Virus record (IMG/VR): IMGVR_UViG_3300009529_000001
Coordinates: 45,579 to 109,578 of that record
Strand: one strand, 5' to 3'
DNA from: a virus
Length of the DNA: 64,000 nt
In this document: one piece after another, positions 25,286 to 52,953 of the stretch
How the letters are laid out: every line of letters begins with the position of its first letter
How positions within the stretch are numbered: position 1 is the first letter of the stretch
Translations under genes and position numbers: made by a program
The notes under the pieces: generated by a model
What the model was told of the DNA's origin: nothing
Databases searched by the model: none
What the model saw: the letters and a program-made list of their open reading frames with translations, nothing else

Positions 25286-25287
25286 GA

Positions 25288-25705: not shown

Positions 25706-25709
25706 AACA

Positions 25710-26791: not shown

Positions 26792-26829
26792 ATATATTAG
26801 CAAAGGGGCACTAGAACAAGGAGGTTGTT

Positions 26830-27102: not shown

Positions 27103-27110
27103 GAGAAACC

Positions 27111-27314: not shown

Positions 27315-27325
27315 GACCCCTTGGA

Positions 27326-27370: not shown

Positions 27371-27552
27371 AAGAATTTTTGGAAAAGATTCTTTTCTAAA
27401 AAAGAAAATTTCCCCAAAACTTTCTGAAGATGAAGACATTCCTGTGAATCTTTTCATACCAGTTATGGTTTGAATCATGTCATAGTCATAGCCCTGAGAT
27501 GATTCTAATCCTTCTTTTCTGGCCTATACCATAACGGTATCGAAAAATTCGG

Positions 27553-27598
27553 TCGAGTATACGTTTTGTATACAAAAGTATTAAAAACGTATACTCGA
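27553..27598. repeat. 15-bp perfect inverted repeat with nested palindrome
   Basis: TCGAGTATACGTTTT (27553-27567) and AAAACGTATACTCGA (27584-27598) are perfect inverse copies with a 16-base spacer that itself contains GTATAC. The spacer also has ATTA at its end, creating ATTAAAAAC with the arm. A hairpin or operator for a dimeric protein is plausible. Confidence 0.8.
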
Positions 27599-35910: not shown

Positions 35911-36275
35911 CTGATTACGCTAAAGAGATTAAAACAATTTTTTGTGATATTGATGGTGTAATTTTTAAACATTGTGGAGATTTGACTATTACTTATGATC
36001 AAGGCGGAAAACTTTTACTCGGAGTTACAGACAAATTTAAAGAATGGGCTTTTAAAGGATATAAGATTATTCTTATAACGGGTAGACCTGAAAGTATGCG
36101 AGAATTTACTAAAAAACAATTAGAAAACGCAGGATTATTTTATGATCAACTTATTATGGGATTACCACGTGGGGAACGTGTTGTAATTAATGATCGAAAA
36201 CCAAATTCACATATTCCAACTACAAAAGCAATTGATTTAGAACGTAATAAAGGATTAGAAAATGTTGACATCTAA
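35907..36275 (+). CDS. HAD-like phosphatase
   Basis: TIFCDIDGVIFKHCG holds the nucleophile Asp and the DxD. ILITGRPESMREFT is motif II and VINDRKPNSHI motif IV. ATG 35907 overlaps the previous stop (ATGA); ATG 35895 is in frame but inside the previous gene. 122 aa, small cap-less type. In the sugar-activation module it probably removes a phosphate from a sugar phosphate. Confidence 0.78.
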   Translation: MTDYAKEIKTIFCDIDGVIFKHCGDLTITYDQGGKLLLGVTDKFKEWAFKGYKIILITGRPESMREFTKKQLENAGLFYDQLIMGLPRGERVVINDRKPNSHIPTTKAIDLERNKGLENVDI

Positions 36276-37284
36276 ACTAGCATTTGGACCGATGAGTGAA
36301 GAAATTATCGAAGCTGTTTACAGATATTCTTCTAGTAAATACTCCAGTAAAACACTAGTTCAATTGATGCTTATTGCTTCTAGAAATCAAGTTGATTATG
36401 ATCATGGTTATGTATTTAAAACAAAAGAATATGCAACTTTTTTGGATAAAATGTATAAGCGTTATCCTGAAGCTGATATAAAAATTTGTCGAGATCATTG
36501 TGGTCTTGGATTTTCTAAAAGAAAAGATGATGATTTAAAATCTGTTTTTAAAACAATCGAAAATGATATTGAAAATGGCTTTGATCTTATTCACATAGAT
36601 TTGTGTCATTTAGATGCTAGCCTTAAAAGAAAACTATGTTGTTCTAAAAAACTTATGACTTTTGCTAAAGATTTAAATAAAAATATTTTGTTTGAAGTTG
36701 GAACAGACGAAAATATTGGAATTCCTGAAAATAATCCTAAAAAAATTATTGAAAATATTAATTATTTTTTGGATTCTGTTAATCTTGAATTTTATGTAGC
36801 GCAAACTGGAAGTCTTATTAAAGAAATGTACAATGTAGGAACTTTTGTAAAATATCTTGTAAAAGATATATCGGATGTTTTACATAATAAAGGAATAAAA
36901 CTTAAAGAACATAATGCTGATTATTTGTGTAAAGAAAATATTCAGGAAAGAATTGATTCAAATGTAGATGCATTAAATATAGCTCCTCAACTTGGAGTTA
37001 TTCAAACAAATTGTGTTTTAGCTCAATGTCAGATATATGGGATTGAATATAGAGATTTTTTATATATAGTGCATCAAGGAAGACGATGGGAAAAATGGAC
37101 TTCTGAAAAAGAAAATTTATATTTTCAAACTATTCTTGCTGGACACTATCACTATAAATCCCCCGAGTATCAGAAAATTATAACAGCGTTAAACAAATAT
37201 GTCGATATAAAAGAAATAATTATCGGACAAGTTACGGATTGCATTAGACATTACGATTCTTGCTTTAGGGGAGTAAACGAATGA
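36262..37284 (+). CDS. TIM-barrel protein, tagatose-bisphosphate aldolase accessory-like
   Basis: 340 aa. FEVGTDENIG is near the conserved FExGTE pattern of GatZ/KbaZ (class II aldolase non-catalytic) proteins, and IKICRDHCGLGF, FDLIHIDLCHLD and ALNIAPQLGVIQT are TIM-barrel strand ends. I therefore call it aldolase-like. It could be the enzyme that makes or cleaves the sugar phosphate used by this module. Not all active residues are certain from reading. Confidence 0.6.
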   Translation: MLTSKLAFGPMSEEIIEAVYRYSSSKYSSKTLVQLMLIASRNQVDYDHGYVFKTKEYATFLDKMYKRYPEADIKICRDHCGLGFSKRKDDDLKSVFKTIENDIENGFDLIHIDLCHLDASLKRKLCCSKKLMTFAKDLNKNILFEVGTDENIGIPENNPKKIIENINYFLDSVNLEFYVAQTGSLIKEMYNVGTFVKYLVKDISDVLHNKGIKLKEHNADYLCKENIQERIDSNVDALNIAPQLGVIQTNCVLAQCQIYGIEYRDFLYIVHQGRRWEKWTSEKENLYFQTILAGHYHYKSPEYQKIITALNKYVDIKEIIIGQVTDCIRHYDSCFRGVNE

Positions 37285-37625
37285 CTGTAATAGATAAACC
37301 TTGGGGAACTGAAGAAATTCTAGAATCTAATGATAAGTATGTAGTTAAACGAATCTACATGGAAATAGGAAAAAAATGTAGTCTTCAATATCACGAAAGA
37401 AAGAAAGAAACAATATTTGTCTTAGTTGGTTCTTTAGAAGTAGATATAGGCGAATCTGTTAATAATCTAAAAACTATTATAGTAAATACAGCAGATGGTT
37501 TGACATTAGATCCTGGAGATATCCATAGAATGAAAGCTGTAGAAGAAGATTGTATTTATCTGGAGATGTCTACTCCAGAACTTGACGATGTTATAAGATT
37601 AGAGGATGATTATGGAAGAGTATAA
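37281..37625 (+). CDS. Cupin-domain protein, phosphomannose-isomerase type II-like
   Basis: DKPWGTEEILESNDKYVVKRI is the usual start of type II phosphomannose isomerase cupins, with the metal site in SLQYHERKKETIFVLVG and LDPGDIHRMKA. 114 aa, only the cupin. Overlaps its neighbours by 4 and 14 bases. It probably isomerises or epimerises a phosphorylated sugar in the activation pathway. Confidence 0.75.
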   Translation: MTVIDKPWGTEEILESNDKYVVKRIYMEIGKKCSLQYHERKKETIFVLVGSLEVDIGESVNNLKTIIVNTADGLTLDPGDIHRMKAVEEDCIYLEMSTPELDDVIRLEDDYGRV

Positions 37626-39186
37626 AGTAGTTATACCTTGCGCTGGAGCAGGTGGACGCTTAGGTGGTCTAACTAAGCATGTCAACAAGGCTCTTATTAC
37701 TGTTGGCCTTAAACCTATTATTTCCTATATTATTGAAAAATTTCCTGAAAATATTGAATTTGTAATTGCTCTTGGATATAAAGGGCAATTAGTTAAAGAC
37801 TTTCTTGAGCTTGCTTATCCTGAAAGAAAATTTACTTTTGTAGATGTTGATCTTTACGAAGGAGAAGGATCAAGTGTTGGTTATTCTTTATTCTCCTGTA
37901 AAAAACATTTACAATGTCCATTTATTTTTTGTGCTAATGATACGATAGTTACGGAAGAGATTCCTTGTCCAGTAAAAGATTGGATAGGATATTATGCATT
38001 AAAAAAAGCTAATGATAATTATAGATCAGTTAGTCTTGATTTTAATGTAGTTAATTATGTCCATGAAAAGGGTGAAAATCCGAACGCACGTCCTTATATA
38101 GGATTATGCGGTATAAACAGTTATAAAAGATTTTGGAGAGCAATGGAAGATAGTGATTTATCAGAAGGGGAATGTATTGGATTAAATGCTATATGTCAAC
38201 TTCATGCATATCCTTTTATGTGGCAAGATACGGGTAATCTATCTGATTTAGATTCTGCACGTGCAAGAATTGGACAGCAAAAAGAATTAACTATTCTTCC
38301 TAAAGAGGATGAAGCTATTTGGTTTGTTAATGACAAAGTAATAAAATTCCATATTGATAAAGATTTTATTAAGAATAGAATAGAACGGGCAAAGCATTTA
38401 GAAGGATATGTGCCAACGCTTCTTGACGCAAGAGAAAACATGTATAGTTATAAAAAGGTTGAAGGAAGAATGTTTTCAAAAAGTGATTCTATATTATCGG
38501 ATTTTAAAATCCTTCTTAAAGTTTTAGGAGGAGGTTTTTGGAAACTTTGTGGTTTGAATCCCGATGAAGAAAAAGAATTTGATAAAGCTTGTATAAAATT
38601 TTATAAAGATAAGACGTATCAAAGAATTGAACAATATTTTTCAAAATATGATTATAAAGATACTGAAGAAAGAATAAACAGAACATATACGCCGAAATTA
38701 TTTAGTATGCTTGATACTTTGGACTGGGATAATATTACTGATGGTTTTGCTGTCAGATTTCATGGAGATTTACATTTTGAAAATATTGTTATAAATGAAG
38801 AAACTGATTTAATGGATTTTTATTTTATGGATTGGCGACAAGATTTTGGAGGAATTGTAGGAAGATGTGGGGATATCTATTATGATTTCGCAAAGCTGTT
38901 ACATGGTATGATAGTTTCTCATGAATTGATAGCGGATGGAAAATTTAATATTTGTAAAAAGAATACTATGATTAATTTTGATTTTCTACGGAAACAAAGT
39001 CTAATAGATTGTGAGAATTATTTTATGGAATGGATTTTAACAAAACCTCAATTTGATTATTATAAAGTAGCTGTTTTGACTGCACTTATTTTTCTTAATA
39101 TTGCTCCGCTTCATGAACATCCTTATTCTGAATTTTTGTTTTATCTTGGAAAATCGTATCTTTACAAAGTAACAAGTGAAGTATGA
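37612..39186 (+). CDS. Bifunctional sugar nucleotidyltransferase-kinase
   Basis: The N-terminal about 240 residues are a nucleotidyltransferase: VVIPCAGAGGRLGGLTKHVNKAL (GxGxRL, Lys) and IFCANDTIV. The C-terminal part is an aminoglycoside-phosphotransferase/choline-kinase-like domain: FHGDLHFENIV (HGDxHxxN, about 383) and MDWRQDFGG (DxR-like, about 405). In LicC/LicA-type systems the two are separate; here they are fused, a design used for activating a phosphorylated polar head group or sugar. ATG 37612 is in the 3' end of the cupin gene. Confidence 0.82.
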   Translation: MEEYKVVIPCAGAGGRLGGLTKHVNKALITVGLKPIISYIIEKFPENIEFVIALGYKGQLVKDFLELAYPERKFTFVDVDLYEGEGSSVGYSLFSCKKHLQCPFIFCANDTIVTEEIPCPVKDWIGYYALKKANDNYRSVSLDFNVVNYVHEKGENPNARPYIGLCGINSYKRFWRAMEDSDLSEGECIGLNAICQLHAYPFMWQDTGNLSDLDSARARIGQQKELTILPKEDEAIWFVNDKVIKFHIDKDFIKNRIERAKHLEGYVPTLLDARENMYSYKKVEGRMFSKSDSILSDFKILLKVLGGGFWKLCGLNPDEEKEFDKACIKFYKDKTYQRIEQYFSKYDYKDTEERINRTYTPKLFSMLDTLDWDNITDGFAVRFHGDLHFENIVINEETDLMDFYFMDWRQDFGGIVGRCGDIYYDFAKLLHGMIVSHELIADGKFNICKKNTMINFDFLRKQSLIDCENYFMEWILTKPQFDYYKVAVLTALIFLNIAPLHEHPYSEFLFYLGKSYLYKVTSEV

Positions 39187-40022
39187 GAATAGCACTTTGT
39201 CTATCAGGTCTTATTGGTAATGCCAAGGGAAAATCTGGCGATGCTTCTTCAGAACAATCTGTTTTAGATATTTCTTTTAAGTATTGGAAGAAACATGTTT
39301 TAGATAAAAATGATGATATTGATGTTTTTATCCATACTTGGGATGTAGATCTTGAAGATAGAATTAAACAATTATTTGATCCTCTTCTTATTACAGTAGA
39401 AAAACAAAAAATTTTTGATATTCCTGATTATGTAGTTGGACATCCTGAACAAAGAAAACAAAACCATTATAGTAGATGGTATGGAAATAGAGAAGCTGTT
39501 GGTTTAAAAAGAGAGTATGAAGATTATTGTGATTTTAAATATGATATGGTTATGCTTTCTAGATTTGATGTAGCATGGCAAACCGATGTAATTTTTTCAA
39601 AATTTGATTCTTCTTGTTTTTATGTAGGAAATTGGTGTACGTTAAGAGATAAAAAAACAAATTTGAATTGTTTTAAAGATGGAAGAGGAGATCTTTATGA
39701 ACGTTTGGAAACTGAACCTCTTTCTAATTTTAAACATTCACATTTTCCTATCAGAAGAGGAATGTTAGATCATTGGTTTTTCTCTCATTCTGAAAATATA
39801 GATAATTTTGCTGAACTTTATAGCAATTTGGATGAATATTTAAAAGATCCAAAAGCATCTAGAGATCCTAATAAACCCGATAGTTCTTTAAATATTTGTA
39901 ATCATCAATTGGTTTGTTATCATCTTCAAAAGCTTGGACTTTTTGATAAAGTGCGTTGTGTTTTTCATTCGTTTAGTGATTTTCCATTAACAAGATATAA
40001 ATTTTTAGGATCCAAAATATGA
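39183..40022 (+). CDS. Glycosyltransferase-like protein, tandem paralogue 1
   Basis: IALCLSGLIGN, DIDVFIHTWDVD and FKYDMVMLSRFDVAW follow the pattern of capsular-type glycosyltransferase-like proteins that begin with RIALCxSG and carry SRFD. Closely related to the next gene through most of its length. 4-base overlap with each neighbour. Catalysis is inferred. Confidence 0.6.
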   Translation: MRIALCLSGLIGNAKGKSGDASSEQSVLDISFKYWKKHVLDKNDDIDVFIHTWDVDLEDRIKQLFDPLLITVEKQKIFDIPDYVVGHPEQRKQNHYSRWYGNREAVGLKREYEDYCDFKYDMVMLSRFDVAWQTDVIFSKFDSSCFYVGNWCTLRDKKTNLNCFKDGRGDLYERLETEPLSNFKHSHFPIRRGMLDHWFFSHSENIDNFAELYSNLDEYLKDPKASRDPNKPDSSLNICNHQLVCYHLQKLGLFDKVRCVFHSFSDFPLTRYKFLGSKI

Positions 40023-40831
40023 AAACAGCATTGTGTTTATTCGGATTAGTCGGTAATATCAAAGGGAAAGCTGGTAAGCATTCTTCTGACAATGAACTTC
40101 TTGAACTTTGTTATAAACATTATAAAGAACACATTTTAGACAAGAATGATATTGATGTATTTATTCACACTTGGGATATTCAATTTAAAGATAGAATTTT
40201 AGAATTATATAAACCTAAAGATTCGATTTTTGAAAAACAAATTCAATTTAAAACTCCTGATTATATCAAGAGTAATAAGTTAAGAAAAAATAATCACTAT
40301 AGTAGATGGTATAGTGCTTGGAAATCTGTATGTCTTAAATATCGGTTTGAAAGAATGTTTAAATTTAAATATGATATGGTTATGTCAAGTAGATTTGATC
40401 AAACTTGGGAAACTGATGTTGTATTTGAAAAGTTTGATCCACAATATTTTTACGCAGGACATTGGTGTGAATTATTTGACATGGTTGGTCGAGTTTTTAG
40501 TGCTGGACAAGGACCGTTATATAAGTGGATAAAAGAAGGTAGAGATATATCTGATCTTAAACATTCGCATTATACTAAAGAAAATAAGGGATTAGTCGAT
40601 CATTGGTTTTTTTCTAATTCAAAATATATGGATAAATTCCATACACTTTTTTTGCATTTGGATGAATATCTAAAAGACCCCGAAGCATCTAAAAATGGTA
40701 AAATTTCTAATCATGCTTTGGCTCCTTATCATCTTAAAAAAATTGGATTGTGGGATAAACTCAAATTTGTATTCCATTTTTTCGATGATTTCCCATTAGC
40801 GCGAAGAAAATATTTTGGAGTGATAGAATGA
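40019..40831 (+). CDS. Glycosyltransferase-like protein, tandem paralogue 2
   Basis: Begins TALCLFGLVGN, has DIDVFIHTWDIQ, NHYSRWYSA and FKYDMVMSSRFDQTW at the same places as paralogue 1, and ends with the same FHFFDDFPLARRKYFG-type tail. The pair is a gene duplication. A duplicated transferase can add two related sugars or act on two acceptors. Start GTG/ATG is 4 bases before the previous stop. Confidence 0.6.
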   Translation: MKTALCLFGLVGNIKGKAGKHSSDNELLELCYKHYKEHILDKNDIDVFIHTWDIQFKDRILELYKPKDSIFEKQIQFKTPDYIKSNKLRKNNHYSRWYSAWKSVCLKYRFERMFKFKYDMVMSSRFDQTWETDVVFEKFDPQYFYAGHWCELFDMVGRVFSAGQGPLYKWIKEGRDISDLKHSHYTKENKGLVDHWFFSNSKYMDKFHTLFLHLDEYLKDPEASKNGKISNHALAPYHLKKIGLWDKLKFVFHFFDDFPLARRKYFGVIE

Positions 40832-41382
40832 GTTTTAATAAAGAAATGATAATAGAAGCCATAGAATTAATTGATCCTAGATATGAACACGTTCTTGAAT
40901 TTGGAGTATATAAAGGACGATCTATAAAAATTATTCGAGAAAATCTACCAAATTCTTTTAGAGTATTTGGTTTTGATTCTTTTGAAGGATTGCCAGAAGA
41001 TTGGAAAGATTCTAAAAACAATCTTGTAGGAAAATGTAAAAAGGGATTTTTTTCTACTAATGGTAAAATTCCCGATATAAGAGGAGTAAAGTTTTTTAAA
41101 GGATGGTTTAAAGATACAATTTCTGAATATAAAAAGATCGCTCAGAAAATTGCTTTTATCCATATAGATTCTGATTTGTATAGTTCTGCGAAAGAAATAT
41201 TATGGGGATTAAATGATTATATTGTTAAAGGGACCATTCTTCTTTTTGATGAATGGTATTATGATCATGATCCTAAATATAATGATCATGAAGAAAAAGC
41301 ATTTTTTGAATGGTCAGAAAAATTTAAAAGAAGATATGAAATGTTTGCTGAATACGATGGTAAACAAATTGTGAGGATTTAA
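40828..41382 (+). CDS. TylF-type SAM methyltransferase
   Basis: HVLEFGVYKGRSIKIIRENL, FGFDSFEGLPEDW, IAFIHIDSDLYSSAKEIL and LLFDEWYYDHD are the motifs of the TylF/macrocin O-methyltransferase-like family (DSFxGLP, DxDLYxS). 184 aa. In this setting it would methylate the sugar made or transferred by the neighbours. 4-base overlap with the upstream gene. Confidence 0.82.
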   Translation: MSFNKEMIIEAIELIDPRYEHVLEFGVYKGRSIKIIRENLPNSFRVFGFDSFEGLPEDWKDSKNNLVGKCKKGFFSTNGKIPDIRGVKFFKGWFKDTISEYKKIAQKIAFIHIDSDLYSSAKEILWGLNDYIVKGTILLFDEWYYDHDPKYNDHEEKAFFEWSEKFKRRYEMFAEYDGKQIVRI

Positions 41383-41384
41383 AA

Positions 41385-42689
41385 ATGATTAGATGTGATT
41401 ACCCTAATTGTGGATGTAAAAAAACTACTACTTTCAAATGGATTTCTCATGTTTTAAAAACAATTTATTTTGAAGTTCCTAAAGTAGCATCTACAAGTAT
41501 ACGAAAAGGATGTTTCGGTATTGATGTAAATGATCTAAAGAAAAATAATCCTTATGATTTTGAAGTATTTCGAGATTCCAATCTTGAAAAATATTCTGAT
41601 TATTTTAAATTTACAATTGTCCGAAATCCTTGGGACAGAATCGTATCTATTTGGAAAATGTATACAACACAGTCTTCTCGCAAAAAACAAATAAAAAAAT
41701 TATTCAAAATAGAAGATCCTGCTAATCTTTCTTTCCTAGAATTTATTGAAAAAATGACAGAAAAGAGGAATCACCATTGGGAACAACAAATTGAATTTTT
41801 GCCTAATTTAAATGAATTAGATTACATAGGAAGATTTGAAAATCTTAGGGAAGCTTGGCATTTTATTTCTTATAAATTAGGAATAAATACAAAATTACAG
41901 AAATTAAATGTCACAGATCATTACCATTATCATTATAGTGAATATTATGACAGAATAACAAAAGGAATTGTAGAGAAAGAATATGCGAAAGATTTTAAAA
42001 TACTTAAATTCAAATTTGAAGTGCTTTCTTACTGTGATAATTTTTCTAAAGAAAAATCTAATATTGCAGGATTAAAATATATTCCGACTCAGGAACCATA
42101 TAGAAGTAATGGTTGTCAAATGATGAATATTCCTTCTTGGTTAGTAAGAAGAAAGGAAATGAGAAAAGATAGTTTTTCTGTAAGGAATAGAAAAATTTTA
42201 TTTAAACGTATTACTCCTGAAATGAAATGTATCTTAGAAATTGGCGTCAATAGATATGCAGAAAAATCTTCTACAAGTATTGTTTTTAAAGGTAAATCTG
42301 ACGATTGTGTTTACTTAGGAATTGATTTAATGGATAAATCTTATTTGGATAATCCTGAAAAGAATATATATACAATGAAATGCAATTCAAATTTAAAACA
42401 AAAGGTTATAGATAAATTAAATAGTTTAGGACAAGAACAGATAAATCTTCTTATTATTGATGGGGATCATTCAATCAATGGCGTTATAGGTGATTGGGGA
42501 TTTACTAAATGGCTTGCTGAAGATGGGATTGTATTTTTACATGATACAAATGCACATACTGGTCCTATGCTTGTTTATGACGCTATAGATGAAACTATGT
42601 ACAAAAAGAAGAAACGTTGTACTGGAAGAAATGAAGATGGCAGTTTTAAAGATTGGGGAATTGGTGTTTGTAGGAAGATTAAAGAATAG
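41385..42689 (+). CDS. Sulfotransferase fused to a SAM-methyltransferase-like domain
   Basis: Residues about 27-45 (IYFEVPKVASTSIRKGCFGI) form the 5'-phosphosulfate loop of PAPS-dependent sulfotransferases, with FTIVRNPWDRIVSIW (about 79-93) as the 3'-phosphate loop. After about 250 residues a second domain shows CILEIGVNRYAEKSS, GIDLMDK and LLIIDGDHSINGVIGDW, as in class I methyltransferases close to cephalosporin hydroxylase-like proteins. A single 434-aa chain with both is unusual. It may sulfate and methylate one sugar. Convergent with the minus block: the last 11 bases overlap the 42679 gene. Confidence 0.8.
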   Translation: MIRCDYPNCGCKKTTTFKWISHVLKTIYFEVPKVASTSIRKGCFGIDVNDLKKNNPYDFEVFRDSNLEKYSDYFKFTIVRNPWDRIVSIWKMYTTQSSRKKQIKKLFKIEDPANLSFLEFIEKMTEKRNHHWEQQIEFLPNLNELDYIGRFENLREAWHFISYKLGINTKLQKLNVTDHYHYHYSEYYDRITKGIVEKEYAKDFKILKFKFEVLSYCDNFSKEKSNIAGLKYIPTQEPYRSNGCQMMNIPSWLVRRKEMRKDSFSVRNRKILFKRITPEMKCILEIGVNRYAEKSSTSIVFKGKSDDCVYLGIDLMDKSYLDNPEKNIYTMKCNSNLKQKVIDKLNSLGQEQINLLIIDGDHSINGVIGDWGFTKWLAEDGIVFLHDTNAHTGPMLVYDAIDETMYKKKKRCTGRNEDGSFKDWGIGVCRKIKE

Positions 42690-43617
42690 AAATTACATCT
42701 ACAAATTTAAGCATATTACTTTTTCTATTCCCAATATAAGAAATTAATCTTTTTTGTAGATTTTTCGCTAATTTTTGGCGAAATTCATGATTTTTTATAA
42801 GATATTTTGTATATTCTATAAGTTTTTCGGGTGTTCTTGCTAAAAGTGCAGTTTCCTTGTGTATAGCATAATCCCGGACCCCTCCAATATCCATACCTGC
42901 AATAGCACAACCACAGAGACCAGCTTCCATTGGAGGAATATGTAAGCCTTCCGTCTGAGAAGTAAACATCCAAATATCACACTCATTATAGATCCAATTT
43001 AATTTTTCAGAATCAGGAGATCTGTAATAAGAACAAGTATTAAATTTTACATCATTCACTCCAAATGTTATGACTCTGATTTTTTCTGTTTTTCTAATTT
43101 CGTTTATAGTTCTTTTAAATAAATCAAATCTTTTATATCCTCTTTCGTGATACAATCCTCCGATAGTTATTCCTGTTCTTGCGAAATTACGAGAATAAAA
43201 TATATCCAAATCTAAACCCGGATAAACAACAGGTGGATAAGAATTAAATCTTCCAATTCTATTACTAAGCCATCTTGCATTCGTAATAATTCTGATTTTT
43301 TTGCAAAGTTCTAATATTTTTTCATCAGACTGAGACCAATTTTCCCAACCTCTTACGTACCAAATTTTCTTAGCTTTAGTTTTAAATTCCAACAATGGAG
43401 GAACTGAATTAATACCAGTAGCTATTATAACATCTAAATCTTTAGAATATTCTTTTGTAATACGTGCTACACATTTAGACCATGTGTAATTGTATTTGTC
43501 TGCAACAAGATAGACTTCATGTCCTAATTCTGTCAAAACATTTGCACAGGAAACAATAGTTTTTGTTCCACCATTGTTTCCATAACCACAGCCTAAAGCA
43601 GTGAAAGCAATTCTCAT
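42679..43617 (-). CDS. GT4-type glycosyltransferase
   Basis: Start ATG 43617 overlaps the upstream gene's stop (ATGA); the open frame from 43632 is less likely. RIAFTALGCGYGNNGGTKTI is the N-terminal donor/acceptor loop and EGLHIPPMEAGLCGCAIAGMDIGGVRDYAI the GT4 C-terminal motif. Last gene of the leftward modification operon and convergent with the sulfotransferase fusion. Confidence 0.82.
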   Translation of the reverse strand: MRIAFTALGCGYGNNGGTKTIVSCANVLTELGHEVYLVADKYNYTWSKCVARITKEYSKDLDVIIATGINSVPPLLEFKTKAKKIWYVRGWENWSQSDEKILELCKKIRIITNARWLSNRIGRFNSYPPVVYPGLDLDIFYSRNFARTGITIGGLYHERGYKRFDLFKRTINEIRKTEKIRVITFGVNDVKFNTCSYYRSPDSEKLNWIYNECDIWMFTSQTEGLHIPPMEAGLCGCAIAGMDIGGVRDYAIHKETALLARTPEKLIEYTKYLIKNHEFRQKLAKNLQKRLISYIGNRKSNMLKFVDVISIL

Positions 43618-44582
43618 TTGATTATATCCCAAAGATGTTTTGCAGCATGATTGATAGAAAGATTTTTCCAGTAATAATTATAAGAATTGTATTGATCGTA
43701 ATGTTTAAGGATATGATAAATGCCATTTAATATACCTAATGTATTAAGTTGACAAGATATTCCAGTTTCAGGAGTAATATATTTTTCAAACCAAATATTC
43801 ATGTCATTGGTCACTATTACAGGAAGACCACATACAAGAAATTCTGGTAAAACTCTTGGACAAGAATCGTATTCTGTGCTGCATATCAAACCCATTTTAC
43901 ATTGACTCATAAAAGCAGAAAGATTTGCTCGTCTTTGCCATCCTACTGATTTGATATTATGTTTTTTGGCAAGCTGTTTATCTCTATCATTTAACATTCC
44001 TATATGAAGAAGAGAATATCTAGAATCTTTGAAAGTTTCAAAAGTTAGTTTGATTCTTTTTATATCTTTGTCAGTAGAATTTGCCATAAAACAAACATCG
44101 TAATTTTTCTTTCCAAATCGAAACGAAGGATGAGGATAAAAGATATTTTCTGCTGCGGGTTTAATAAATAATTTAGAACCAGGAACTTGTTTTTGTTGTT
44201 TGACACTATCGACTAAAATAATATCCCAATTGCCGTCAGACGGTTTAAAACGATTACCGGCACCATAGTATACCCATTTTGCACTTTGAATCGTCTGACG
44301 AGCCTTTAAACAATCAGAGAACCCACCTCTAGCAATAACAACATCGAAATCGGTAACAGGCAGTTTATTTAAATCAGGAACCCATCTTTCGACGAATCTA
44401 GGACTAACAACTTTGATTTTTTTATAATCTCCTCCCCAATACCATAGTTCTACTTCATTAAAATATTTACACATTCTTTCAGCAAGGATAGTCCACATGT
44501 CTTCGCATTGCCATATGTGATCGTATTTAAGCCTTTCGGGCTTAAAAGTAGGAACTTTACCACGAAGGAAAAGAAGTTTCAC
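43614..44582 (-). CDS. GT-B glycosyltransferase
   Basis: LLFLRGKVPTFKPERLKYDHIW, IARGGFSDCLKA and the C-terminal EYDSCPRVLPEFLVCGLPVIVTND (donor site) are GT-B features. The core signature is weaker than in GT4 proteins. 4-base overlap with both neighbours of the leftward operon, so it acts with UGD and the hypermodification-type gene. Confidence 0.75.
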   Translation of the reverse strand: MKLLFLRGKVPTFKPERLKYDHIWQCEDMWTILAERMCKYFNEVELWYWGGDYKKIKVVSPRFVERWVPDLNKLPVTDFDVVIARGGFSDCLKARQTIQSAKWVYYGAGNRFKPSDGNWDIILVDSVKQQKQVPGSKLFIKPAAENIFYPHPSFRFGKKNYDVCFMANSTDKDIKRIKLTFETFKDSRYSLLHIGMLNDRDKQLAKKHNIKSVGWQRRANLSAFMSQCKMGLICSTEYDSCPRVLPEFLVCGLPVIVTNDMNIWFEKYITPETGISCQLNTLGILNGIYHILKHYDQYNSYNYYWKNLSINHAAKHLWDIIK

Positions 44583-45418
44583 AGAATCGCTCCCTCGATA
44601 TCTTCCCAGTCACGTTTTTTACGAAGACGTAAATTGTTTTCCCAAGCGGATTCAAGGAAAGAAGTATCAATATCTAAATCTTTGAATAATCCTATGATTG
44701 ATCGCATATCTTTAGGAAGACATTTGCCACCAAATCCTCTAGCATTGGAAACTTTCAAATGTTCAGCAGAATACATAGGATCGGCAGTAACGATTTCTAC
44801 AAGTTTTTCGTAATCTACACCAAGTTTATCAAATCCTTGTTTCATCACATTTGCGTATATGACTTTGATTGCTCCTAAGGAATTTGCAAAATATTTTGTA
44901 GCTTCAGCAGTAACAGTATCACATCTATATATTGGAATATCTTTGTTAATATTTTCTAAAGATCTTATGTATTCATTGACCTTACAAGGATATTCTGCCC
45001 CTATAACATGACGTTTTGGATTTATGGCGTCAAACATCCAAATAGATTCAGTAAGAAATTCAGGAGAAAAATAGATATTAGAATAGCCAGTACTTCTGAT
45101 TAATTCTTTAGTTGTACCAGGAGTAACAGAAGATTTGATAATAATATGTTTTAAATGTTTGGTTTTGATTTTAACTATATCTCCTACTATTTGTTCTACA
45201 AGATGAACACTTATTCTAGGATTATTATTTATATCTACACAAGGAGTAGGAACACAAACAAAAATAAATTTGGATTCTTTTACAACTTCTTCAAAGCTAT
45301 AAGTATCAGGATTTTTAGGATCATAAAATTTTATTGAAATATTTTTTCGATGATGTTTAAAGAAAAGAGCTGTTGCTTTTCCAACAATGCCATAACCTAT
45401 GATTCCAATATTATTCAT
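44579..45418 (-). CDS. UDP-glucose/GDP-mannose dehydrogenase-like, short form
   Basis: IGIIGYGIVGKAT (NAD-binding GxGxxG), VCVPTPC, SSVTPGTT, EFLTESIWMFD and the catalytic GFGGKCLPKD (Cys233) are the family's hallmarks. Length 279 against about 400-450: the C-terminal nucleotide-sugar-binding domain is largely absent. The enzyme would oxidise a nucleotide sugar to a uronic acid, e.g. UDP-glucuronate. It lies 2 bases from the DNA base hypermodification-type gene. Whether the short form is active is uncertain. Confidence 0.85.
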   Translation of the reverse strand: MNNIGIIGYGIVGKATALFFKHHRKNISIKFYDPKNPDTYSFEEVVKESKFIFVCVPTPCVDINNNPRISVHLVEQIVGDIVKIKTKHLKHIIIKSSVTPGTTKELIRSTGYSNIYFSPEFLTESIWMFDAINPKRHVIGAEYPCKVNEYIRSLENINKDIPIYRCDTVTAEATKYFANSLGAIKVIYANVMKQGFDKLGVDYEKLVEIVTADPMYSAEHLKVSNARGFGGKCLPKDMRSIIGLFKDLDIDTSFLESAWENNLRLRKKRDWEDIEGAIL

Positions 45419-45420
45419 TT

Positions 45421-46359
45421 TTAAACCTTTGTAATAGGATGAAAATGCATTCTGGCTTTACCTACCTGTTTTTTAATCTTCCAATACTTACCCCACTCAC
45501 AGAGACAAAATTCCATATCTTGAAGTGTCAATCGTGGACCTTTGAATTTAATGCCAAGATGTTCAAAATGTTCATCTTGTTCATCGGTAAGTTCCGACAT
45601 TGCATCTGTGTAGGAAATACATTCCCTATTAGGATATATTGTTTCTATTCCAAATTCGCATCCTGGTCCTGGATTAGCAAAAGTATCACGAACTTTGTCA
45701 GGGAATACTCCAGCATAGACCATATCTATACAGACTTCGTATGAAGTAAATCCTCCGAATCCATATTGTTTAAGAAAAAATTTAAAGCATCCTTCCCAAT
45801 CTAAAATTTTTCTAAACTTTTTAATTTCTTTCCAGATATACTTCCAATTCTTTTTGAGTTTGGTGACGATAGTAATGAAATTAGCAATACGAGACTGCTT
45901 AAGATTTGATTGACAAGTAATGTGCGCATTTGTAAAGACTCTAAATCCTTTTGATTTGTAGGAATTAAGGCGTTTTTCGTATTTTTCGGGATTAAATTTT
46001 TTTCTGAGAGGAATTCCACAGGCTTCAAAGGTTTCGATATTGTTGTTAATCCTATAAAAAATGCAAGCCCAAACTTTATCTTGAAGTCTCGGATACTTAT
46101 CGTTTTCAATAATATTTTTAATCATCCACTGACTGCCACGATCAAGAATACGATAAACATTAGTAAATTTATATTTTTCTAATATTGGGTCTTTAGTCCA
46201 CGGAGGAGGTTTTTTCTTTATAAATCGACGTATATAAATGTTATGACGTTTATGAAGGAATCTGAAAAACATATCAAGATTTTTCTGACAAACTTCAGGA
46301 TAATCTTCAGGTTTTGGAAGAGCAGATAAAGATTTAGAAGATTCTCTTTTTAGAACCAT
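45421..46359 (-). CDS. DNA base hypermodification family protein (5-hmdU DNA kinase helical domain)
   Basis: The order FFRFLHKRHNIYIRRF (about 31-46), WTKDPILEKYKFTNVYRILDRGSQW (about 54-78, given here by its parts WTKDPIL and FTNVYR), then the C-terminal NPGPGCEFGIETIYP, matches proteins annotated as putative DNA base hypermodification or 5-hmdU DNA kinase helical domain (family resemblance from memory). These are linked to thymine hypermodification through 5-hydroxymethyluracil. 312 aa, helical, no P-loop, so it may be the helical partner only. The neighbours are UGD and glycosyltransferases. A sugar-bearing modified base is a plausible product, not shown. Confidence 0.75.
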   Translation of the reverse strand: MVLKRESSKSLSALPKPEDYPEVCQKNLDMFFRFLHKRHNIYIRRFIKKKPPPWTKDPILEKYKFTNVYRILDRGSQWMIKNIIENDKYPRLQDKVWACIFYRINNNIETFEACGIPLRKKFNPEKYEKRLNSYKSKGFRVFTNAHITCQSNLKQSRIANFITIVTKLKKNWKYIWKEIKKFRKILDWEGCFKFFLKQYGFGGFTSYEVCIDMVYAGVFPDKVRDTFANPGPGCEFGIETIYPNRECISYTDAMSELTDEQDEHFEHLGIKFKGPRLTLQDMEFCLCEWGKYWKIKKQVGKARMHFHPITKV

Positions 46360-47285
46360 TATTCACCCCTTGTAAAACCGTACTGATATTGTTGGAGAAT
46401 TTTGTCAACTTTGTCATCTTCTATATCGCAATGCCATTGTTTTTTAAAAGCATTTCTTGACTCATGAAAATGTAATAACAATATACCTTCGACGTTAACC
46501 TTTTTACGATAATCAATTAAACGCTTTTTAAGTGATGGAAGTAAATTTCTAAGAAGCTGAATATGTTTACCTAATTGACAATCAAAATTATATTCGCTGA
46601 TTTTAAGAGAAATTCTTATATCACCAAAGAGAATAATGCGCATTAAAAAATCTGTTACTGCATATGTAGGATGTTTAAAATTAAGATTAAACATTCCTAT
46701 CATATCAAAGACTTTCTTGTGAACAAGAAAACAATTAAACCCTGAAGCAATTAACATTGATCCTTTCATTACTTGTTCACAAAATATATTAAACCAATTA
46801 TATTTCCACATAACATCGTATCCACTAATTAAAATCCAGTCTGTATTAGACGCTGTAATAATAGCATTACAAAATTTTGAAAAATTACAATTTTCAAAAT
46901 CTATATCCGTATCTATTATATTTAAATCATGTATTGTTTGAAATGATGACTCTTTATCTAAAAATTTTTCCAATTTTTCTATTTCTTCTTTTTTAAAAAA
47001 AGAAAATTCAAAAACTTTATTGTTAAGCATTTTATAAAGTTTAATAGGATCAAAATTATTACTAAGAATATTTACATCTGTATTGGAAGGAAGTGTATTA
47101 AGAAGAGAAATAACTGATAAATAAGTCACTTCTGTTGGCATAAAATAATTCAGAATATTGCAAGTGATTGGTATCATACTATAATTAATATGACAGAGTT
47201 GATCATGAAAAATATTTAATATTTTTAAATATTTTTTATTATATGAATTTCTTCCAACATTACGAGACGCTAGGGCGTCGCGCAC
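46359..47285 (-). CDS. Glycosyltransferase-like (GT-A) protein
   Basis: The GTG at 47285 opens the frame; the region just upstream is an inverted repeat. Within it LKILNIFHDQLCHINYSMIPITC, then NTDWILISGYDVMW (an SGYD in the place of the GT-A DxD) and FNCFLVHKKVFDMIGMFNLNFKHPTY resemble the acceptor half of GT2-type enzymes. A later start (ATG at about 47177) is possible. First gene of the leftward operon; shares one base with the hypermodification-type gene. Confidence 0.5.
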   Translation of the reverse strand: MRDALASRNVGRNSYNKKYLKILNIFHDQLCHINYSMIPITCNILNYFMPTEVTYLSVISLLNTLPSNTDVNILSNNFDPIKLYKMLNNKVFEFSFFKKEEIEKLEKFLDKESSFQTIHDLNIIDTDIDFENCNFSKFCNAIITASNTDWILISGYDVMWKYNWFNIFCEQVMKGSMLIASGFNCFLVHKKVFDMIGMFNLNFKHPTYAVTDFLMRIILFGDIRISLKISEYNFDCQLGKHIQLLRNLLPSLKKRLIDYRKKVNVEGILLLHFHESRNAFKKQWHCDIEDDKVDKILQQYQYGFTRGE

Positions 47286-47333: not shown

Positions 47334-48218
47334 ATGGAATTTGAAAAAGCATTAACAAAAGAACAAAAAAGAAAACAAAAATTAGAAAAATTATTAAAAA
47401 AATATGGACATCTTCTTAGTATTCCTGCGGGAGTTTTACCTTTAGAACATAAAGCTCCTTTAGGTGGTGGATTGAAATGTTTTCAGAAAATATATCAGCG
47501 CAAAAATGGTAAAAAAATAAAAAACCTTCCAAAAATCCGCTGTACTAATCCTGCCGTAAAAGGATCATTTTTTTGTAAAAAGCATGGCGGTGGTAATACA
47601 CATGCAATGGTTCATGGGAAAAGAAGAATGTCCTCTATTACCGGAGGATTATACGGAAGAGGAATGCAACAAGATTTTAGTAATCTTCTTGAAGAATTTT
47701 TAAATGATCCTAAAATGGTAGATCTTAGACCTGAACTTGCCGCATTACGATTAGCTCTATCGGAATATATGAGTGAACTTACTTCTGGAGAACCCAAACA
47801 GTCTCCAAAGAGATTAATCAAATATATTAAAGATATTACAGAAAGTGAAAATACAAATTATGGAGAAAAATTTGTATTGATAAGAGATTTATGCGCTTCT
47901 CAAAGTTTTTTAACTGATGGTGATTCTTTAGATAGACTGTATAAGATAATAGAAACTATAAGTAGAGTTGCAGAAAGAATGCATAAAATACAAATGCAAG
48001 ATAATTATATTTTGACTCCTGATGGGTTGAAAGTTTTCTTAAGATCTATAGTTGATTTATTAAAACAAACTATTCCTGATCCAGACATATTGAAAGAAAT
48101 TCAAGAAAAATTGTTAGAAATTTCTATGCAGACAAAGGGAAATATACACGATGTTGGTAGAAAAAACGTAAATATAATGAATGAAAAGGAAGATATGGAA
48201 TTTCAGGAATTTGATTAA
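47334..48218 (+). CDS. Putative small terminase subunit
   Basis: It sits directly before the large terminase (1-base overlap), the usual place of TerS. Sequence: basic N-terminus, a zinc-like CTNPAVKGSFFCKKHGGG, then RPELAALRLALSEYMSEL and a long helical C-terminus (IETISRVAERMHKIQMQD). That HGG element followed by a RPELAxLR helix appears in TerS candidates of similar phages, from memory. 294 aa. It would bind the packaging site and load TerL. Confidence 0.6.
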   Translation: MEFEKALTKEQKRKQKLEKLLKKYGHLLSIPAGVLPLEHKAPLGGGLKCFQKIYQRKNGKKIKNLPKIRCTNPAVKGSFFCKKHGGGNTHAMVHGKRRMSSITGGLYGRGMQQDFSNLLEEFLNDPKMVDLRPELAALRLALSEYMSELTSGEPKQSPKRLIKYIKDITESENTNYGEKFVLIRDLCASQSFLTDGDSLDRLYKIIETISRVAERMHKIQMQDNYILTPDGLKVFLRSIVDLLKQTIPDPDILKEIQEKLLEISMQTKGNIHDVGRKNVNIMNEKEDMEFQEFD

Positions 48219-49963
48219 TGGCACAAAAACGTAGAAGAATAATCCAACACATAGTTCAAAATCCTTTTGAAGAATTAGCTCTCGGATTATCAGCAGATAA
48301 AATTGAAGATGAAATATGGGAAGAAAAGCCTGTAAGTATTCAAGAATTTATTGAAGGCGAAGAATATCTTAATTTAAAGTGGAACGGAAGAATTGGTTGT
48401 CGTCCTGAGATAATGAAAATATTGAAAAAAGTATCTCAAGATCATATACGCGAAGCTGTTCTTTTATTAGGTAAGGGTTCTGGGAAGGATTATTCAGCAG
48501 CAATACTACATTGTTATGGAATTTATAAATGTTTATGTATGAGGAATCCTCAAGGATTTTATGGATTATCTAGAAGATCAAAGATTTATTTTGTTAATAC
48601 CGCAAGAAATGACCAACAGGCAAGGAAAGTTTTCTTTGAAGAGTTTAGAGGAATGGTAGAAGATTGTCCTTGGTTTGAAGGACAATTTTCTGAACCTACA
48701 GGCAGTAGTATTTTTTTTGCAAAACGAATTGAAGCGATTAGTGTAAATAGTCAAGCTTTTGGATGGCTTGGATATAATACCATACAGTGGGTTGGAGATG
48801 AATTGGCATTTTTCTTAGAAAATGATAAAGATGAAGAATCTGATTCTCGTGCAGAAGAATGTTGGGAAGCCGCTTATGGTTCCTGTAGTACGAGATTTGG
48901 AAATTATTATAAAATGATTGGAATAACAACACCACGTTATGATGATGATTTTGTAATGAAAAAATTCTATGAATTACAAGATAGACCTGATGGCTACGCA
49001 ATTCAAAAGGCAACTTGGAATATTCACCCTGATAGAGAAAAGAAAGATTATTATTGGGCGTTGACTAGAAACTATCGTCGTGCTATGCGTGATTTTGGAG
49101 CAGTTCCAAGTGGTGTTATAGAATCGTTCTGGGCTGATCCTGATTTTGTAGAAAACAATATTTGTCAACAATGTAGGCAATGTCCTGTTTATCAGAATAG
49201 AGGAATAGATAGCGATATTTATAGTTGTTGGGATTATGATAAGTGTAAAGTAAATGCTTATATGGGAAATGGAAGATGGCGTGAATGGTTTAAACCTGAA
49301 GAAGATAAAGAAATATTTATTCATTTTGATTTATCAAAAAATAAAGATAGAGTAGGATTTTCAGTAGGGTACGTAAATGATTATATTCAAGTCGAATTAG
49401 ATTTACATGTAATGAAAGAAAAAGCAGAAAAAGAAAAAGTGGAATTAAAAACTCTTGATGACGATGATCGTTTCGAAGAAAAACCAATGATAAAAATCTG
49501 TGCCATTGGTACAATTTCTCCTGCAAGTAAAAGAGACTCAAGACTTACAAAAAATGGTGAAATTTATTATACTGGTATTTTAAAGCATATTATTGTAACT
49601 CTAATAGATAAAGGATTTGAGATAGGCACTATTTCTTTCGATCAATTCCAAAGTCACATGTTGAAACAATCTTTAGAAGATATGGGAATAGATGTAGAAT
49701 TGATTTCTTTGGATAGGAATGATACTTTACCAGTGCAGGCTAAATTAGCCCTAACAGAGAATAGAGTTGAATATCCTTATTCTAAACTTTTATGTGATGA
49801 AGCAAGACATTTAAAGTATATTAAAGGTAAGAAAGTGGATCACGCGAAGAAAAAGTCAAAGGACGTATGGGATGGATTTGCTGGCACTATAGCAGATTGT
49901 GAAAATTATTCCGGAGGAAGTAAAACATTTGCTTTTGAGGATGATGAAGAAGACGATGATTAA
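48218..49963 (+). CDS. terL: Terminase large subunit (packaging ATPase and nuclease)
   Basis: Walker A LLGKGSGKDYSA (about 82-92), Walker B WVGDELAFF (about 190) and a nuclease domain with acidic positions in IHFDLSKNKDRVGF (about 367), SFDQFQSHM (about 473) and AKKKSKDVWDG (about 540). 581 aa, normal for HK97-type large terminases. It cuts concatemeric DNA and pumps it into the prohead. A zinc-like cluster CQQCRQCPVY...CWDYDKC lies in the middle, uncommon. Coupled to small terminase and overlaps portal start. Confidence 0.92.
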   Translation: MAQKRRRIIQHIVQNPFEELALGLSADKIEDEIWEEKPVSIQEFIEGEEYLNLKWNGRIGCRPEIMKILKKVSQDHIREAVLLLGKGSGKDYSAAILHCYGIYKCLCMRNPQGFYGLSRRSKIYFVNTARNDQQARKVFFEEFRGMVEDCPWFEGQFSEPTGSSIFFAKRIEAISVNSQAFGWLGYNTIQWVGDELAFFLENDKDEESDSRAEECWEAAYGSCSTRFGNYYKMIGITTPRYDDDFVMKKFYELQDRPDGYAIQKATWNIHPDREKKDYYWALTRNYRRAMRDFGAVPSGVIESFWADPDFVENNICQQCRQCPVYQNRGIDSDIYSCWDYDKCKVNAYMGNGRWREWFKPEEDKEIFIHFDLSKNKDRVGFSVGYVNDYIQVELDLHVMKEKAEKEKVELKTLDDDDRFEEKPMIKICAIGTISPASKRDSRLTKNGEIYYTGILKHIIVTLIDKGFEIGTISFDQFQSHMLKQSLEDMGIDVELISLDRNDTLPVQAKLALTENRVEYPYSKLLCDEARHLKYIKGKKVDHAKKKSKDVWDGFAGTIADCENYSGGSKTFAFEDDEEDDD

Positions 49964-51683
49964 AAGAACAATTCCTGAAATTAAAACCAGCAATATCGAG
50001 ATGCGCACAAAAGAAGCTTCTGGCTTCATAGAAGATATTATATTTGGAGATATTTTAACTTCTGCTTTTGAAAGAATATCGGATCAGGATGCGTTCGATT
50101 TATATAAATCAAACGAATGGGTTGGAAATACTGTAAATAGAATTGTAAGAGATTGTGTTAAAAATGAACCTGTTGTTGTTCCAATTAGAAAAACTAATAA
50201 AGTTTCTAAACGTCAAGAAGGAAGGATTAGAAAAGTCCAAGATTTTCTTTGGAATCCTAATAAGGGTAAAGAAAGTTTTAAAGAAATAAGAGAAAAACTT
50301 ATACGGGATGAATTAATATATGGACGTGGAGGAATAGAAAAAGTAGTTGATAAAGATTCTAGAAAATTATTAGAAATTTATTCGGTATCTGGTAAAGACA
50401 TTAGAGTAATGGCGGATAAAAAAGGAAATCTTCCTCCTACAAAAACTTATAGACTTACAAAACATCCTTTTAGTAATTCTAAAACCGATAATGAAAATAC
50501 TATTTGGTTTGATTTTGACGAATTAATTTTTGTTGTATTGAATCCAATTAGTAGAAGTTTGTATGGAATTAAGATTTTGGATAATATAGCTTTTGCTGTA
50601 GGCGTCGATATTCTTCGGTCAAACTATAATGGAAATTTCTTTGTTAATGGTGCTGAGGCTTCAGGAATTATTTCTGTTCCTGATTTAAATAAAAGAGCGT
50701 TTAGAGCATTTACAAGTAAGTGGAAAACTGGACATAAAGGTGCTGCTAAATCTCATAGACTTGCATTCACAAATTCTCAAGTCAAATTTGAAAGGATGTC
50801 TTTATCAAATCGTGATATGGAATTTGGAGAATATGGTAAAGAATTACGTGATAAAATATTTAGTGGATATGGAATGCAACCTGTTGTAATGGGTATAGTT
50901 GATTCGACCACAGGAAAACTTAATTCTAAGGAACAAATTAATCTTTATAAAGAGGGCGGTTTAAGACCTGTTCTTGAAAAGGAAGCTTATTATTATACTT
51001 TAGAAATTTTACATATGGGATTTAATATGCGGGATTTAAAAGTTACATTCCCAAGTATTGAATTGGCTGATATCGAAACTCAAACGGGAATTGAAACTCA
51101 AAGGCTTACTGCTGGAACTACATATATTAATGAAGTTAGGGCAAATCACAATGAGCCTCCTGTTGATTGGGGTGATAGACCTGTTGTGCTTCAACCGGGA
51201 GGAGGTCAAGTCAATCCAGGAGGTACGCTTGTACCTCCTTCTGGAAGTAAAAAACCCCAGAAAGAATTAGATCTATTTATAAAATATTTTGATTCTTTAA
51301 AAATTAAGCTTAATGCTTTATTTGGAATACTTGATAAAATCAAATTTGAAAAATGCAAGATTGACGAAGTTTCAAAATCACAAAGCATAAAATATAATGG
51401 AAAGAACTTTAAATTAAAAAGATTTACATTGCCGAGTAAATTTAAAGGATGTGAATTAGATAAAACATTAGATAAAATTATTGATTATAGATTAGTAATT
51501 GAAGGAAATTACTATGATGATTATATGGAATGTTTGCTTTCTAGAATAAAAAGTGCGATAGTTTCTAATATAATGGATGGAAGTGAGAAAAATATCTTTA
51601 ACGAGATGGATAGAATTAAAAATGATGAGATGAATTATGGTCCGGCTACGGTGATTTTCAATGGCAATAATACCTCAAGCTGA
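49941..51683 (+). CDS. Portal protein (HK97-like)
   Basis: The start is uncertain: 49941, 49944 and 49956 (ATGATTAA overlapping the TerL stop) are possible. Motifs: VGNTVNRIVRDCVKNEP, GIKILDNIAFAVGVDILRSNYNGNFFVNGAEASGII, and FSGYGMQPVVMGIVDS with LNSKEQINLYKEGGLRPVLE. These follow the phage portal family. The ring of 12 at one vertex is the DNA port. 594 aa from the longest reading. It overlaps the protease by 23 bases. Confidence 0.88.
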   Translation: MMKKTMIKRTIPEIKTSNIEMRTKEASGFIEDIIFGDILTSAFERISDQDAFDLYKSNEWVGNTVNRIVRDCVKNEPVVVPIRKTNKVSKRQEGRIRKVQDFLWNPNKGKESFKEIREKLIRDELIYGRGGIEKVVDKDSRKLLEIYSVSGKDIRVMADKKGNLPPTKTYRLTKHPFSNSKTDNENTIWFDFDELIFVVLNPISRSLYGIKILDNIAFAVGVDILRSNYNGNFFVNGAEASGIISVPDLNKRAFRAFTSKWKTGHKGAAKSHRLAFTNSQVKFERMSLSNRDMEFGEYGKELRDKIFSGYGMQPVVMGIVDSTTGKLNSKEQINLYKEGGLRPVLEKEAYYYTLEILHMGFNMRDLKVTFPSIELADIETQTGIETQRLTAGTTYINEVRANHNEPPVDWGDRPVVLQPGGGQVNPGGTLVPPSGSKKPQKELDLFIKYFDSLKIKLNALFGILDKIKFEKCKIDEVSKSQSIKYNGKNFKLKRFTLPSKFKGCELDKTLDKIIDYRLVIEGNYYDDYMECLLSRIKSAIVSNIMDGSEKNIFNEMDRIKNDEMNYGPATVIFNGNNTSS

Positions 51684-52923
51684 TATTATCGAAGAAATCC
51701 TGAAGAGTCCAAAAGCTTTTGAGCGGAATGGTCTTGAAGAGGATTTCTGTATTTATGTAAAAAATATTAAAAAGAAGAAGATAAATAAAAAGAAATTTAT
51801 TATAGAGGGATTTGCTGCTACTTCTGATAAAGATCGTGTTAACGACGTTATTACTAATGCTGCATTGAAAGAAGCTAAAAATCATCTTCTTCAAGATGGT
51901 GCAAGTACAGTATTTTATAATCATAATCGGAATAGGCCAATTGGAAAAGTTATTGCAACAGAATTTATTTTTAATAAGGGACTTAAAGTAACAATTTTGA
52001 TTTCCAAGGCTAAGGATGTTCGCAGTATAAGAACTAAATTACGTGAAAATGTTTTGAAATCACTGAGCATTGGAGGGCGGTTCAAGAAAGTACGAATTGA
52101 ACGCGATGAAGAAGGAAGAGTCATCGCGTACAAGGTACTTAGAATTGAACTTTATGAAGTCTCTGTTGTCGGACTTCCTGCCAACCCCAAAGCCAGAATT
52201 ACAAGTGTAGAAGGTAAGCCGTTGAAAGGATGGACTAAAATGTGGAAAAACATTAAGTTCAAAACTTCAGCGACAAACGACAACGGAAGGAGTGATAAAG
52301 TGGCTAAGAAAAAGACGAAGAAAAAGGATAAGAAAGAAGTTGATAAGGATGTAGACGATAATGATGATGAGCAGGAAGATACGTTTACGAAAGAAGTTGT
52401 TTCTGAAATGATTAAGGAAGCTATTGATCCTATTTCAGAAAGTGTAAAGGAAATTGCTGGTTCAGTTAAGAAATTAGCTGATCTTATTCCTCAAGAAAAC
52501 AAGAATGACGACGATGATGATAACGATAATGAAGACGACGATGATGAGAATGATGAAAAAGACAAGAAGAAAACTAAAAAGAAGGATAAAGACACCAGTG
52601 ATGCTCCTGAGTGGGCAAAGGATCTTGCAGAAACTGTCGATAGCATTTCAAAACGGATGAAGAAAATTGAAAATGGTAGCGATAATAAGCGGAAAGGATA
52701 TACTGGTTCTGATGATCCTGATGACAATGAGGATGACGACAATGAGGATGATAAGGATGTACCCAAGAAGAAACTGAGTGAAGACCTGGACGAAGATACC
52801 CTTAAGTATCTTGACTATATCTATAATAAGGAACCGGGAAAATACACGAAACTAACTGATGAGGAAAAGCAGTTAGCAGATGCTCTTTATGCGGCTGCGA
52901 TGTTGATCATTAATGGCAAATAA
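51661..52923 (+). CDS. Prohead protease fused to scaffold-like C-terminus
   Basis: The N-terminal about 180 residues are an S78-type protease: FIIEGFAATSDKDRVNDVI, FYNHNRNRPIGK with the catalytic His (about 86) and SLSIGGRFK with the catalytic Ser (about 134). After residue 200 the protein changes to Lys- and Asp/Glu-rich helices and acidic runs (DDDDDNDNEDDDDE type), which fit a scaffold part. The one-gene protease-scaffold design is known in some HK97-type phages. Starts within the portal gene. Confidence 0.9.
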   Translation: MAIIPQADIIEEILKSPKAFERNGLEEDFCIYVKNIKKKKINKKKFIIEGFAATSDKDRVNDVITNAALKEAKNHLLQDGASTVFYNHNRNRPIGKVIATEFIFNKGLKVTILISKAKDVRSIRTKLRENVLKSLSIGGRFKKVRIERDEEGRVIAYKVLRIELYEVSVVGLPANPKARITSVEGKPLKGWTKMWKNIKFKTSATNDNGRSDKVAKKKTKKKDKKEVDKDVDDNDDEQEDTFTKEVVSEMIKEAIDPISESVKEIAGSVKKLADLIPQENKNDDDDDNDNEDDDDENDEKDKKKTKKKDKDTSDAPEWAKDLAETVDSISKRMKKIENGSDNKRKGYTGSDDPDDNEDDDNEDDKDVPKKKLSEDLDEDTLKYLDYIYNKEPGKYTKLTDEEKQLADALYAAAMLIINGK

Positions 52924-52953
52924 GAGAAAGAATAAATTTGTTAGGAGGTAAAA

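Follow-up and report, generated by a model that had tools for sequence, protein, structure and literature searches.

A tailed phage that appears to attach a sugar, possibly acidic, to a thymine-like base in its own genome

The DNA analysed here, referred to as the window, is a stretch of 64,000 nucleotides corresponding to bases 45579-109578 of virus record IMGVR_UViG_3300009529_000001 (109,578 bp); positions below are those of the window unless the record is named. The two ends of the record are identical over 123 bp, and the genome is therefore circular or terminally redundant, about 109.5 kb long and complete in this assembly. Its relevant parts were repeated at 99.8-100% identity in contigs of sample 3300024433; dN/dS estimation from this second copy (99.97% identical) was abandoned because the differences were too few. 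The virus is a tailed phage known from metagenomes alone; genes probably encoding terminase, portal, protease and capsid proteins were recognised by eye at 48218-53952, and directly after the probable capsid gene come a double glycosyltransferase of 942 aa (GT4+GT2) and a GT2 gene (54053-57630). Elsewhere in the window, minus-strand genes at 29027-29494 and 31693-32136 encode a uracil-DNA-glycosylase-superfamily protein and a NADAR protein, respectively, and ORFs of low complexity (LTLTLT / VKVKVR repeats) are present on both strands at 21813-22356. The locus of interest is an operon of five minus-strand genes running from 47285 to 42679, in which a gene for an HMUDK_hel protein is second and a gene for a UDP-sugar 6-dehydrogenase (UGD) third. 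Its junctions read, in order, TAATG, TAA-AA-ATG, GTGA and ATGA, so that the genes are coupled.

The product of the second gene (45421-46359, minus strand, 312 aa) had been placed in the 5-hmdU DNA kinase helical-domain family by the initial annotation, on the basis of three motifs and with an HMM search proposed as a check. All three motifs are present (WTKDP at residues 54-58, FTNVYR at 65-70 and NPGPGC at 229-234), and the search with the helical-domain profile PF18723 (aGPT-Pplase1) returned a full-length member, aligned to positions 3-276 of 281 with 205 bits (curated cut-off 25; E 1.9e-60), the only match to this profile in the whole record. Altogether, 15 of the 15 family-invariant columns among 53 aligned relatives are present in the protein, R38, W54, R70, D73 and K291 among them. 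These 15 residues are common to members associated with kinases and members associated with glycosyltransferases, as would be expected if the conserved job were recognition of hmdU and not phosphorylation. The AF2 model (pLDDT 93) resembled the helical part of the SP10 5-hmdU DNA kinase (TM 0.80). Against PDB folds the model gave no significant match, the best glycosylase reaching E 1.3; among these weak matches the coherent group consisted of HhH DNA glycosylases, each individually non-significant. HhH DNA glycosylases are base-flipping enzymes, and the protein is proposed here to be a partner that recognises 5-hmdU in DNA or presents the base. HMUDK_hel proteins were also observed in archaeal assemblies (Haloferax, Nanoarchaeota and Woesearchaeota; L091-L103), mostly with no kinase or recognised glycosyltransferase close by.

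The UGD gene (44579-45418, minus strand, 279 aa) starts 2 bases past the HMUDK_hel stop, the spacing originally given. Its product matched the central (PF00984, 1.2e-17) and N-terminal NAD-binding (PF03721, 8.3e-16) domains of the UDPG_MGDP_dh families in Pfam, and its motifs SPEFL, AEATKYFAN and GGKCLPKD aligned with the K. pneumoniae-type UGD 3phl (E 9e-24), with the catalytic Cys and Lys motifs kept. No match to the C-terminal UDP-binding domain (PF03720) was obtained; the description of the protein as a uronic-acid-producing dehydrogenase thus agrees with the NAD and central domains, but the third domain is missing. Lack of this domain is typical of phage short UGDs, which mostly measure 244-297 aa. 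Downstream, also on the minus strand, follow two GT4-family glycosyltransferase genes, at 43614-44582 (PF00534, E 4.3e-6), the GTG start of which overlaps the UGD stop, and at 42679-43617 (PF00534, E 1.5e-11), the ATG of which (at 43617) lies in an ATGA overlap. The first operon gene (46359-47285, minus strand, 308 aa), the stop of which overlaps the HMUDK_hel start, was assigned to no family: searches of Pfam, PHROGs, PDB and phage sequences gave no convincing match, comparison of its profile with TAGT and glycosyltransferase profiles yielded no identity, and its single-sequence AF2 model was uninformative (pLDDT 35). Glycosyltransferases had been reported on both flanks of the UGD and HMUDK_hel genes, and are certain on one side.

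Short UGDs also occur in other settings. Among 79 further loci retrieved with UGD, none (0/79) contained HMUDK_hel and many contained GT2 or GT4 genes, so that UGD is best seen as a generic phage sugar gene; its use as a general marker of DNA modification was rejected, and coupling of UGD to HMUDK_hel was found in this phage and in viral locus L011 only. A 15-kb sugar island (32617-47285) holds glycosyltransferases, methyltransferases, a sulfotransferase and sugar nucleotidyltransferase-like genes, and many further glycosyltransferases and sugar genes are found elsewhere in the genome. With a genome so full of such genes, the neighbours of HMUDK_hel could have another purpose: the operon could make a surface or virion glycan containing uronic acid, HMUDK_hel being an unrelated passenger in the sugar island, and the frequency of short UGDs among GT2/GT4 genes in viral contigs lacking HMUDK_hel would fit this as well as the island does. 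The coupling of five genes in a single inverted operon, and the single stretch in L011 that unites UGD, HMUDK_hel, ThyA and a BGT-like enzyme, argue against such an origin, which we regard as unlikely.

The thymidine hypermodification systems of M6, ViI and SP10 share with this phage a ThyA-family hydroxymethylase and an HMUDK_hel protein, but employ a kinase and an amino acid:DNA transferase (ADDT), where the present phage has neither and carries glycosyltransferases and UGD instead. No 5-hmdU kinase domain (PF18748), fused or adjacent, and no ADDT (PF18724) was detected in the circular record at E values up to 10, and our own ADDT HMM likewise found none; the positive controls responded, PF18748 matching in M6, Goe26 and Sonora, PF18724 in M6 and Sonora. 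An iterated kinase HMM, which detects kinases missed by PF18748, returned only RecA (E 0.0013), and a kinase elsewhere in the genome was rejected on the strength of both kinase searches. The kinase route implied by the initial annotation accordingly finds no counterpart in this genome. TAGT and the relatives' GT-B family, when looked for, were absent as well. In Goe26 (SP10-like) the P-loop kinase and HMUDK_hel are fused in one protein, whereas in M6 they are separate adjacent genes (gp54 and gp55), the ADDT being gene 51. The separate M6 genes would be compatible with a classical route served here by an unrecognised or host-supplied kinase, and HMUDK_hel might itself be the catalyst, possibly a transferase, given that its model matched ADDT proteins with a probability of 0.99-1.00, at a TM of about 0.5 that is less close than for the SP10 kinase. 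Such a route is nevertheless very improbable in view of a circular genome devoid of kinase-like proteins, even by the iterated HMM, and of the repeated replacement of the kinase by glycosyltransferases on the family tree described below.

A ThyA-like enzyme, which the initial annotation had brought into its argument, does exist (984-3269, plus strand; PF00303, E 1.3e-20), but lies 42 kb off in the window. An HNH intein (residues about 208-588; Intein_splicing 8.5e-20) splits the coding sequence close to the active-site Asn. Both the catalytic Cys and the Asn177-equivalent are kept, as in M6 gp58. In the ThyA family this Asn selects uracil, which favours dUMP over dCMP as the substrate; the enzyme is a probable dUMP hydroxymethylase. 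Its sequence is compatible with transfer of a hydroxymethyl or of a methyl group, and it is the presence of HMUDK_hel that points to hmdU as the product. A second ThyA-like paralogue (record 22412-23530, L003:3412-4530; PHROG 5131, 6e-24) has lost the catalytic Cys and is probably no longer an enzyme of the ThyA type. A DNA polymerase III alpha-like gene, recognised by eye at record 23797-27584 (L003:4797-8584), consists of two ORFs with a 4-base overlap and is broken within an intein-like stretch, reflecting a split intein or a frameshift.

Partners of HMUDK_hel in relatives were surveyed in 80 viral loci from an alignment search, 55 of which remained after removal of redundancy. A ThyA-like gene was usual around HMUDK_hel, and on the other side stood a kinase, an ADDT or both, or else a glycosyltransferase, the latter being a TAGT (PF20691, E 3.9e-21 for L079) or a GT-B enzyme. 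Among the 55 non-redundant loci, a glycosyltransferase was present in 0 of 13 kinase/ADDT loci versus 21 of 42 others (P 6e-4), while 21 of the 55 had no recognised kinase/ADDT or glycosyltransferase. Of 24 glycosyltransferases, 14 directly adjoined HMUDK_hel (P 5e-9), a figure that is partly circular, the families having been picked within 5 kb. An independent set from prokaryote assemblies comprised 8 kinase/ADDT loci and 6 glycosyltransferase loci with an overlap of 0. On a tree of 75 rows, built by a quick method, the kinase/glycosyltransferase label switched 7 times, with 6 as the minimum for either label (kinase, glycosyltransferase) given the starred branches, and the neighbourhood of this phage's protein contains both kinds. 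On this tree, the partner of HMUDK_hel has switched repeatedly between a kinase and a DNA-type glycosyltransferase. The exclusion is not absolute, since kinase and TAGT stand side by side in G021 and G022, about 10 kb away from HMUDK_hel, and TAGT, HMUDK_hel and kinase occur together in L251. In L013, L019 and L042, P-loop kinase paralogues occur in tandem, two or three at a time, close to HMUDK_hel.

A search with TAGT alone yielded 80 loci (L249-L328), with HMUDK_hel in 75 (mostly as the next gene), a ThyA-like gene in 77, a kinase in 1 and an ADDT in none. The compact trio of TAGT, HMUDK_hel and ThyA, free of a kinase, recurred in many of these viral contigs. As the TAGT queries came from HMUDK_hel neighbourhoods, the tight link applies to that subfamily and need not extend to all TAGTs. 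Divergent GT-A-like neighbours (L014/L016) were initially included as TAGT seeds; when rechecked without them, hmmsearch gave 1.9e-6 for L016, and hhalign gave 90.8% for the pair.

L011 (about 40% identity) is among the nearest relatives, and in a single stretch it carries UGD, a T4-BGT-like GT-B protein, a radical SAM (rSAM) protein, HMUDK_hel and ThyA. Comparison of all L011 ORFs with the present genome gave six matches, five of which were these module parts (UGD 1.2e-26, GT-B 3.5e-11, rSAM 3.1e-22, HMUDK_hel 3e-65 and ThyA 8e-30), the sixth (2.9e-6) being a small protein encoded at around 41.4-41.9 kb of the record. The same five parts are thus present in both phages, in one cluster in L011 and in three places here. 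The GT-B gene of this phage lies outside the window (record 37570-38793), directly preceded by the rSAM gene (record 36467-37570). A GT-B profile of L011 and L012 had T4 DNA beta-glucosyltransferase (BGT) as its best PDB match (E 4e-4), and T4 BGT again ranked first in PDB, at E 1.3e-6, once this phage's protein was added; searched alone, the protein gave no PDB match, and the link to T4 BGT requires the two relatives. Residues D100, R191, R269 and E272 of BGT are kept in all three proteins (this phage, L011 and L012), while S189, R195, I238 and M240 are not; we take D100 to be catalytic and the other three kept residues to bind UDP. A viral contig search with the L011-type GT-B family matched this phage and L011's record only. 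The four kept active-site residues would also suit plain glucose on hmdU, with UGD and the two GT4 enzymes serving other glycans: T4 BGT uses UDP-glucose, and most loci with HMUDK_hel and a glycosyltransferase are without UGD. Translational coupling of UGD to HMUDK_hel in this phage, and their clustering in L011, count against plain glucose, which we consider decidedly unlikely.

The reading we prefer, for which we judge the chances to be even, is that the phage carries a kinase-free module glycosylating 5-hydroxymethyl-dU in its own DNA, with HMUDK_hel presenting the base and UGD making a uronic donor. The ThyA-like enzyme would make hmdUMP, to be polymerised into DNA, and HMUDK_hel would bind hmdU in the duplex and present its hydroxymethyl group. 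Sugar transfer would most likely be carried out by the BGT-like enzyme, while UGD would oxidise a UDP-hexose to a UDP-uronic acid (UDP-glucuronate), probably supplying the donor. The GT4 pair of the operon may add or extend sugars. The sequences themselves establish the parts, how they are coupled, the lack of kinase and ADDT, and the family's association with glycosyltransferases; presentation of the base, the identity of the DNA-acting enzyme and the acidic sugar are what we infer. T4 BGT is reported to glucosylate 5hmU in single strands, and in duplex only if it is mispaired (PMC4111573), so that access to the paired base would be the missing step for a base-presenting partner. Against the module counts the location of ThyA, BGT-like/rSAM and HMUDK_hel/UGD genes in three separate places. 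The sugar-bearing thymine hypermodification first suggested for this locus is favoured by the lack of kinase and ADDT in the circular genome, the exchange of kinase and glycosyltransferase in relatives, and the L011 cluster. Acidity of the sugar, suggested along with it, can reasonably be deduced from the presence of UGD but stays conjectural, given how often phages carry short UGDs among glycosyltransferases in loci that lack HMUDK_hel.

To our knowledge, SP-15 offers the sole precedent for a uronic-acid sugar on a DNA base. With its DHPU bearing glucose and phospho-glucuronolactone, SP-15 is a phage with modified thymine that likewise encodes a UGD and glycosyltransferases, but has a full-length UGD (SP15_146, 1311 bp) and a ThyX-like synthase, where the present phage has a short UGD and a ThyA-like enzyme. 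The published SP-15 genes include UGD (gene 146, the glucuronate precedent in phage DNA), glycosyltransferases and ThyX-type synthases (PMC5977210), and a search of SP-15 for HMUDK_hel found none. The likeness to SP-15 drawn by the initial annotation therefore extends to the proposed outcome and not to the parts, and homology was rejected, no modification genes being shared beyond UGD and generic glycosyltransferases. T-even glucosylation of hmC (alpha-GT, beta-GT, TAGT) has in common with the present system a BGT-like enzyme with D100/R191/R269/E272 and, in relatives, TAGT; it differs in its substrate, hmC as opposed to the hmdU presumed here, in the HMUDK_hel partner found here, and in a GT-B enzyme whose similarity is remote. 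Kinetoplastid base J (beta-D-glucosyl-hmU) resembles the proposed end product in being a glucosylated hmU, but arises by another path, in which JBP oxidises T within DNA and the glucosyltransferase is unrelated. In HTVC023P-type pelagiphages, ThyA and aG/PT-PPlase1 (that is, HMUDK_hel) are co-located, with a TAGT-type gene in some, but the part of that report available to us mentions no UGD and no kinase exchange (PMC9599517).

In the literature searched, which did not extend to the original M6/ViI pathway publications, no statement was found of replacement between kinase and glycosyltransferase beside HMUDK_hel; glycosyltransferase-linked aGPT-Pplase1 clusters may have been mentioned earlier. 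These results suggest a role as a shared partner in base handling for a family so far annotated as kinase or pyrophosphorylase. More broadly, and tentatively, HMUDK_hel could be a general hmdU-presenting factor with a glycosylase-like fold and exchangeable catalysts (kinases, TAGT, GT-B), employed in this phage to place a uronic-acid sugar on hmdU. This would predict that HMUDK_hel makes paired hmdU accessible to BGT-like or TAGT enzymes and that glycosylated hmdU occurs in many phages, and may provide a role for some TAGTs without a known first glycosyltransferase, a matter left open in PMC13216743.
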